A stretch of DNA of 41,594 bases from Bacilli bacterium (GTDB taxonomy: Bacteria > Bacillota_I > Bacilli_A > RF39 > UBA660), in the NCBI GenBank assembly GCA_017476885.1, contig JAFUYX010000087.1, positions 1 to 41,594 of the forward strand, in the 5' to 3' direction. The position numbers were made by a program, and so were the translations under genes. A model generated the notes under the pieces. The model was given only the letters and a program-made list of their open reading frames with translations, ran no database searches and was not told where the DNA came from. Below are positions 13,779 to 15,437 of the stretch, one piece after another. Numbering within the stretch: the stretch's first letter is position 1; every line of letters starts with the position of its first letter.

Positions 13779-15437
13779 CTATTCTAAAGAAAATACATAA
13801 GGATTGGTACTACTTCCATTTCCTTCTGAAATTGTGATAGAGGGTATCAGAAACAAGGCCGGCCGGACACCATCGTCAAGGCTAGCACGGCCGTCGTAGA
13901 CATTCCCGTCCGAACCCACTCCGAACACACGGTAAGCATTGGAGGAAAGCACATCCGGCGACAGGGTCCATTGATATGTTGAAGAATATTTAAACAACCA
14001 GTCATTTTTGTAACATTTATAATAATCATGAAGATTGGTATTTGCAAGGCAACTCTCTCTTGCTTCGCCTCCTACAGCGTACCCATAATCACTTGGGTAC
14101 ATAAGTCCTACATATCCTTCCCACGTTGTCGTTCTTTCTACAGTATCATTACAATAATTTCCAGAAGTACAGATTTTTCCTATATTATTACTTCTTTCGT
14201 ATTCATAGAATTTCTTAGCTAGTCCGAGTCCATTTCCTCTTGTGTTAACATCATTACTTCCTTGACTTCCTAAGTTCCATGTATGATTATCTATCATATC
14301 CTTGGCAGCCTCTGTTAATCCAGTAGTACTAAAATCACAGGTAGTATAACCATTTTTACCAAATTTATAGCAATTTCCTGAACTACGATTCCAGTACAAA
14401 CTATTATTGACATAAGTACCTGAAATTGTATTTCCTGAATCATCTTCAGCTAGATTAGTCTCGTACCATGGGTTCAGTAATTTCATTAAGTCAGCTCCAG
14501 TGTACTCTCCTGACTCACCCCATTGATTGATTCCGTATCCGCCATTTACACTTGTTGCACTAGTATCCCATGAATACTCTCCTATGAATTCATTTCTGAT
14601 AAGTTTGATTTGATTATCAAACACTCCAATGATTCTCCAACCAGCTTCTTCTCCATTAAATGTGACATAATTACAAGGATTTTTACCTACATATCTTAGG
14701 TTGCCAAAATCGTCATACGCTAGAGTTTTGGTACATCCAGATTCATCTGTTCCATTGTCAATGACTGCTGTTGATGTTGGGTCTGCATCAGGTACTAAAC
14801 CTAGTATAGTTTCAGCTGCAGTTGGATTCTTTTTCTTAGCTACATTAGATACATACACACTGGCTTCAAATGTTTTGTTCTTATCTGCAATGGTGTCATT
14901 CTCATCCATCCATAAGTATAGAATATAGGTTACACTTTCTCCGTCATTTCCGCCATTTATCGTTGCCCCTTTTAAAAATCCTGTTGCCACAATCAAAGAT
15001 TCATCGATAGATGAGGCATTAGAGAATGCTGATAAATCAGTGTTGACATCTGTAACCGTACCTAGATTAATTCCTGAAGTTGGTTTTGTCTCAGTACTTT
15101 TATAAATTGCATATTTAATCTTATCTTTGGTTAATGTATTACTCTTTAAAGGATTAATGGTAACTGCATACTTACTATCGGTAGTACAAGTATTTCTTAC
15201 GGTAAAAGAATAATACACACCTCCGTTTAAGGCTTTGGTATCACTCATCGGATATGTATTATTTAAACTGATAGGTCCTTGATTCTCTGCAAAATCAATA
15301 GAGTAACATCCTACTTCCGCGATATTCTCTCCACTTTCATATCTTGCTATCCAAAGAGCATAACTTTGTAATGTCATAAAACATATTCCCATAGCGACCA
15401 CGATTAAGGCTAACATAACTTTATATTTCAATTTCAT
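13779..15437 (-). CDS. TasA-like surface protein with C-terminal lectin-fold-like domain, candidate DGR variable protein
   Basis: A 552-residue exported protein. An N-terminal signal anchor (residues 7-28) is followed by a TasA/camelysin-like beta domain (about 30-200, with SFTVRNTC) and a Gly, Asn, Trp and Cys-rich C-terminal domain from about 250 (EEAGWRIIGVFDNQIKLIRNE; WEGYVGLMYPSDYGYA) ending in WTLSP..YRV..G.V..GVRPALFL. That ending resembles formylglycine-enzyme/C-type-lectin folds used as targets of diversity-generating retroelements. Codons for residues about 490-527 are GC-rich and adenine-poor, unlike the rest. It is a single-gene unit with its own terminator and an AGAGGTG site. 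No reverse transcriptase, template repeat or Avd gene is in the window. The domain call is by eye. Confidence 0.7.
   Translation of the reverse strand: MKLKYKVMLALIVVAMGICFMTLQSYALWIARYESGENIAEVGCYSIDFAENQGPISLNNTYPMSDTKALNGGVYYSFTVRNTCTTDSKYAVTINPLKSNTLTKDKIKYAIYKSTETKPTSGINLGTVTDVNTDLSAFSNASSIDESLIVATGFLKGATINGGNDGESVTYILYLWMDENDTIADKNKTFEASVYVSNVAKKKNPTAAETILGLVPDADPTSTAVIDNGTDESGCTKTLAYDDFGNLRYVGKNPCNYVTFNGEEAGWRIIGVFDNQIKLIRNEFIGEYSWDTSATSVNGGYGINQWGESGEYTGADLMKLLNPWYETNLAEDDSGNTISGTYVNNSLYWNRSSGNCYKFGKNGYTTCDFSTTGLTEAAKDMIDNHTWNLGSQGSNDVNTRGNGLGLAKKFYEYERSNNIGKICTSGNYCNDTVERTTTWEGYVGLMYPSDYGYAVGGEARESCLANTNLHDYYKCYKNDWLFKYSSTYQWTLSPDVLSSNAYRVFGVGSDGNVYDGRASLDDGVRPALFLIPSITISEGNGSSTNPYVFSLE
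13857..13970 (-). other. Candidate DGR variable repeat (VR) inside the lectin-like gene
   Basis: By hand count 71 of 114 bases are G or C (about 62%), while the flanks and the genome are near a third. On the coding strand only about 14 of 114 are adenine, a striking depletion in an A-rich genome and what repeated adenine replacement would leave. The 3' edge is a pure GC run GGCCGGCCGG (13857-13866), like the GC element that marks a VR end. It encodes the presumed ligand-binding loop before GVRPALFL. The template repeat would have to lie elsewhere. Confidence 0.55.

Follow-up and report, generated by a model that had tools for sequence, protein, structure and literature searches.

The target gene and its adenine-poor segment

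The window analysed here is a stretch of 41,594 nucleotides that forms contig C75 of a Bacilli genome assembled into 1,117,157 bases (88 contigs, 91.84% complete). It carries a gene for a protein with an N-terminal hydrophobic segment like a signal or anchor, a variable N-terminal half and a conserved C-terminal DUF6273/C-type-lectin-like domain (Table 1). The gene is set among homologues of DnaB/DnaI on one side and of a sigma factor with SpoIIGA on the other, with FtsZ and FtsA nearby, and is therefore chromosomal. The protein is probably exposed on the cell surface and may bind a ligand there. Its C-terminal domain is also found in targets that adjoin the reverse transcriptases (RTs) of diversity-generating retroelements (DGRs) in related genomes.

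An earlier note, made from the letters of this DNA, had pointed to a GC-rich, adenine-poor patch at 13857-13970, and the counts bear this out. These 114 nucleotides of the coding (minus) strand are 62% GC (12.3% A, 28.1% C, 34.2% G and 25.4% T), compared with 37% GC and 34.6% A for the whole gene. A scan of both strands of the 41.6-kb window with 114-nt segments, moved 3 nt at a time, puts 13857 (minus) first in GC. The WTLSP...YRV...GNV...GVRPALFL layout and the GC-only run at the 3' edge are likewise present as described there. Only the extent shifts slightly, with a variable core somewhat narrower than proposed and a conserved 3' flank that reaches 13836. The variable repeat (VR) encodes about residues 493-528 of 552, near the 3' end of the gene.

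The run CCGGCCGGCC presumably resembles the G/C run of the BPP-1 IMH site, and together with the conserved 3' flank it makes a candidate IMH-like anchor. Within this flank, codons 529-534 are identical in all nine copies in the genome, and 84% of flank codons are identical against 68-78% elsewhere in the domain. This difference in codon identity was judged too slight to support an argument for homogenisation of the flank by retrohoming.

Table 1. Positions of the target gene, its variable repeat and related elements
Feature	Location	Strand	Basis or remark
DGR target gene, 552 aa	window 13779..15437	-	ORF and translation, paralogue alignment, AlphaFold2 model
C-terminal domain, residues 229-552	window 13782..14753	-	common to 8 paralogues in the genome
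Region homologous to congeneric DGR template repeats (SPDVLSS...VRPAL)	window 13854..13961	-	sequence comparison
VR variable core, DVLSSNAYRVFGVGSDGNVYDGRASLDDG	window 13869..13955	-	deviations from related templates lie nearly all at adenines of the template
GC-only run at 3' edge, CCGGCCGGCC	window 13857..13866	-	sequence; IMH-like role putative
Conserved 3' flank, GTCCGGCCGGCCTTGTTTCTGATACCCTCTATC	window 13836..13868	-	cassette comparison
Second, complete DGR (template, MutS-I protein, Avd, RT)	same genome (G000), contig C84, L022:8661-10700	-	
Target of the C84 DGR	contig C29, L080:118-477	+	template/target mismatches at A in 17/20
PDDEXK_2 gene beside C29 target	L080:743-1582	+	
PDDEXK_2 gene upstream of C84 template	L022:10845-11111	-	
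Further template subfamily (G008, G035, G033)	L129:1523-1637; L131:230-339; L128:3106-3197	-	

Fold of the target protein

An AlphaFold2 model of residues 229-552 has a mean pLDDT of 82.7 and a pTM of 0.86. Its best structural match is a gut IgA peptidase (9qa6, E 2e-8), followed by phage proteins with DUF6273 (E down to 2e-5); C-type lectins match only weakly, and a search by sequence found no relative in the PDB. DUF6273, which is similar to C-type lectins, has been described as a target domain of DGRs (PMC10743442; PMC11792537). The window protein itself matches the DUF6273 profile weakly and below the cut-off (E 0.04), and 11 of 24 family members match it, the best at 1e-7. An FGE-like domain, which had also been suggested, finds no backing here, as neither the protein nor its family matches the Pfam FGE-sulfatase profile at E 0.1.

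Nine cassettes in one genome

Eight further cassettes lie on contigs C86, C18, C38, C62, C64, C26, C25 and C85 of the same genome. The nine copies have similar C-terminal domains and strongly different N-terminal halves. Within the variable core they differ at 45% of nucleotide and 67% of residue positions; the corresponding values for the rest of the domain are about 19% and 16-26%. The shift in composition recurs in each of the 14 homologous cassettes compared from this genome and a sister species: the VRs are 47-59% GC and 8-17% A, and the remainder of each of the 14 genes is 31-36% GC and 36-40% A.

We further note that four of the 14 cassettes show in-frame length changes (C64, +12 nt; C26, +6; C85, +15; S7 of the sister species, -6; loci L027, L028, L030 and L135) together with more changes outside template adenines. 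Such length changes are unusual for strict retrohoming; the copies are possibly inactive, and some may no longer be rewritten. The 3' end of the cassettes occurs in two versions, GTC CGG and GTT CGC (window 13860-13868, codons 524-526, and the same codons in the other eight), so that more than one template, perhaps two, may be involved. Five of the nine cassettes (C38, C62, C64, C85 and C18) lie about 1.5 kb or less from a contig end, as if the cassette genes broke the assembly.

Changes fall on the adenines of congeneric templates

A template was inferred from the cassettes by placing A at the variable positions and was used to search congeneric genomes. The templates that it matches lie some 1 kb away from the reverse transcriptases of DGRs, for example at G032:C11, G009:C74, G005:C88, G001:C4, G032:C6 and G006:C47. 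Across 80 named loci from Bacilli/Tenericutes MAGs (L145-L224), it is matched within the RT locus in 58, and the distance of the template from the RT start is mostly 0.9-1.3 kb, on either side. At G032:C11 the target gene with its VR comes first, then the template, a pair of small genes of accessory size (123 and 111 aa) and the RT; accessory proteins in the congeners are assigned by size and position, and profile identification (bAvd, MutS_I) applies to C84 only. Local pairs of template repeat (TR) and VR in these congeners have 15/17, 16/18, 19/19 and 21/23 of their mismatches at A. A further template subfamily, homologous and with a differing 3' end (CCCCCGC...), stands beside target-like genes in three other genomes (Table 1). 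The relatives were found with an RT alignment as the query; the whole target protein as query against the contig database returned none, and exact patterns of the 3' flank and the inferred template had no match in viral contigs.

The adenine columns of the comparison are defined solely by eight of these foreign templates, the species' own template being absent from the assembly, and the column register was set on the V-F anchor codons through shared GTGTTC codons, independently of the outcome. Against these templates the window VR is changed at 15 of 22 A-columns and at one of 23 C/G/T-columns (Fisher p=6.6e-6, to be taken as a guide, as the test assumes independent columns). Pooling the ten cassettes that lack length changes gives 130/220 A-columns and 23/230 non-A columns changed. 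The third base at template AAY codons is C or T in 108 of 110 cases, and this retention precludes stop codons.

The same pattern appears at the syntenic locus of a sister species (G059), where a VR gene lies at the corresponding chromosomal position and its flanks are 71% and 78% identical. Between the two VRs, 18 of 22 A-columns and one of 23 other columns differ, and 18% of nucleotides differ in the rest of the C-terminal domain. This is strong evidence, drawn from sequence comparison, that a rewriting process acted after or around the species split, although gene conversion by a paralogue could also have replaced either VR. The proposal that the segment is a DGR variable repeat lacking a local RT is therefore well borne out, its changes falling on adenines of congeneric templates and, equally, in comparison with the sister gene. 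Adenine depletion by mutagenesis was also right in kind, since it is template adenines of AAC/AAT codons that are replaced.

A second retroelement and the search for the cognate one

As the earlier note had stated, the window contains no template repeat, Avd or RT; a direct-repeat search found no partner, and RVT_1 and bAvd matches are convincing only on contig C84. The RT there is the sole one found in the genome by RVT_1; it has the DGR-type motifs GNYTSQ and YMDD and is accompanied by an Avd and a MutS-I protein. Searches for RVT_1, bAvd and templates found no second RT, Avd or template beyond C84. A weak bAvd match on contig C61 lies antisense within an unrelated gene and was discarded. 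The template and RT cognate to the cassettes were not found in the 1.117-Mb, 88-contig, 91.8% complete assembly, an absence that is not proof, and a protein search of the sister genome (about 73% complete) found no RT.

The C84 template does not match the window cassette. Its RT groups with viral RTs and with three from congeners (G019, G003 and G010), apart from the cassette-type RTs, to one of which it is 34% identical; the viral relatives are only about 28-37% identical. A gene of the PDDEXK_2 transposase family adjoins the C29 target, and one of similar sequence is found upstream of the C84 template; a link to mobility of this C84/C29 DGR is possible. Among the related RT loci, 62 of 80 are followed on one side or both by less than 6 kb of contig, which makes an assembly gap plausible for the cognate locus. 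The cognate TR and RT most likely lie in an unassembled part of the genome; otherwise they were recently lost.

Proposed mechanism and alternative explanations

Taken at the sequence level, segment 13857-13970 is very probably a DGR variable repeat whose target gene is chromosomal and lies far from the element. The template RNA would carry AAC/AAT codons at positions of the binding surface, and an error-prone reverse transcriptase would misread its adenines during copying. The resulting cDNA would replace the VR segment, presumably by retrohoming into the window copy. The first two positions of the AAC/AAT codons would thereby be randomised, whereas positions with C, G or T would stay fixed, as would the 3' anchor, and the product would be a surface protein with altered binding residues at its C-type-lectin-like tip.

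An unlikely but serious competitor holds that the cassettes are relics of a DGR that diversified nine targets in this lineage and then lost its template and RT, leaving the VRs to drift. The missing cognate TR and RT, the lack of an RT in the sister genome with the same cassette subfamily, and the indels and non-A changes of some cassettes all fit this account, and isolates of T. denticola with target genes and no core DGR have been described (PMC4891356). Against drift, the non-A columns are nearly intact both in the window copy and between the two species at the syntenic locus (1/23 each), beside saturated A-columns. The cognate locus is also easily missed, as the assemblies are 92% and 73% complete and, of the 80 related RT loci, 62 lie less than 6 kb from a contig end.

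The earlier note supposed that an RT located elsewhere acts on the repeat in trans. An RT does exist in the genome, but its template and target are different ones. That the C84 RT acts on the cassettes through a second template missing from the assembly is very unlikely: it is the only RT found and comes with Avd and a MutS-I protein, yet its adjacent template fits the C29 target (A at 17 of the 20 mismatches) and not the window cassette, and its clade differs from that of the cassette-type RTs. Ordinary positive selection or recombination between paralogues, acting with no retroelement to make the segment variable and GC-rich, is scarcely credible, for although the domain is duplicated and the N-terminal halves differ strongly among paralogues, neither process predicts changes at the adenines of foreign templates next to RTs or explains the C/T retained at third positions of hypervariable codons.

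A remote variable repeat rewritten by a DGR thus remains our preferred reading. A more speculative extension, which we consider quite doubtful, is that this gut bacterium, with its small genome, lacks a DGR core and maintains nine or more scattered VR genes, which would either be rewritten only when an RT and template arrive on a phage or other mobile element or be preserved as a frozen repertoire.

Relation to known systems

Large DGR surveys confine their search for repeats to about 1 kb around an RT and acknowledge that they miss remote targets (PMC8144416). The present case shows that such targets can be recognised from sequence alone, through low adenine and cassette comparison. A single 1.1-Mb gut genome holds nine targets of one kind and a second DGR, so surface diversification in uncultured gut Bacilli may be larger than RT-centred counts suggest.

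Remote multi-target DGRs are already known from Treponema denticola, where one element can have as many as seven distant targets (Le Coq and Ghosh, 2011; PMC4891356), and the window VR is a well-supported new example of this known mechanism. Both systems have several VR genes per chromosome far from the TR/RT core and differences concentrated on template adenines, and some T. denticola strains have targets and no core. They differ in phylum and target family, and here nine copies occur in 1.1 Mb with the core missing from the assembly. The DUF6273/C-type-lectin targets of gut phages, such as the tentaclins (PMC10743442) and those of Faecalibacterium prophages (PMC11792537), share the C-terminal VR, the DUF6273-like domain and the C-lectin-like fold; these are phage proteins beside their own DGR, whereas the window gene sits among chromosomal housekeeping genes. 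In congeneric gut Bacilli MAGs, complete DGRs such as that at G032:C11 have a homologous template and target domain and a DGR-type RT, but their VR adjoins TR and RT, while the window VR is remote. Finally, the C84 DGR of the same genome has the full TR-MutS_I-Avd-RT set and adenine-specific TR/VR differences, with a template, target and RT clade other than those of the window cassette.
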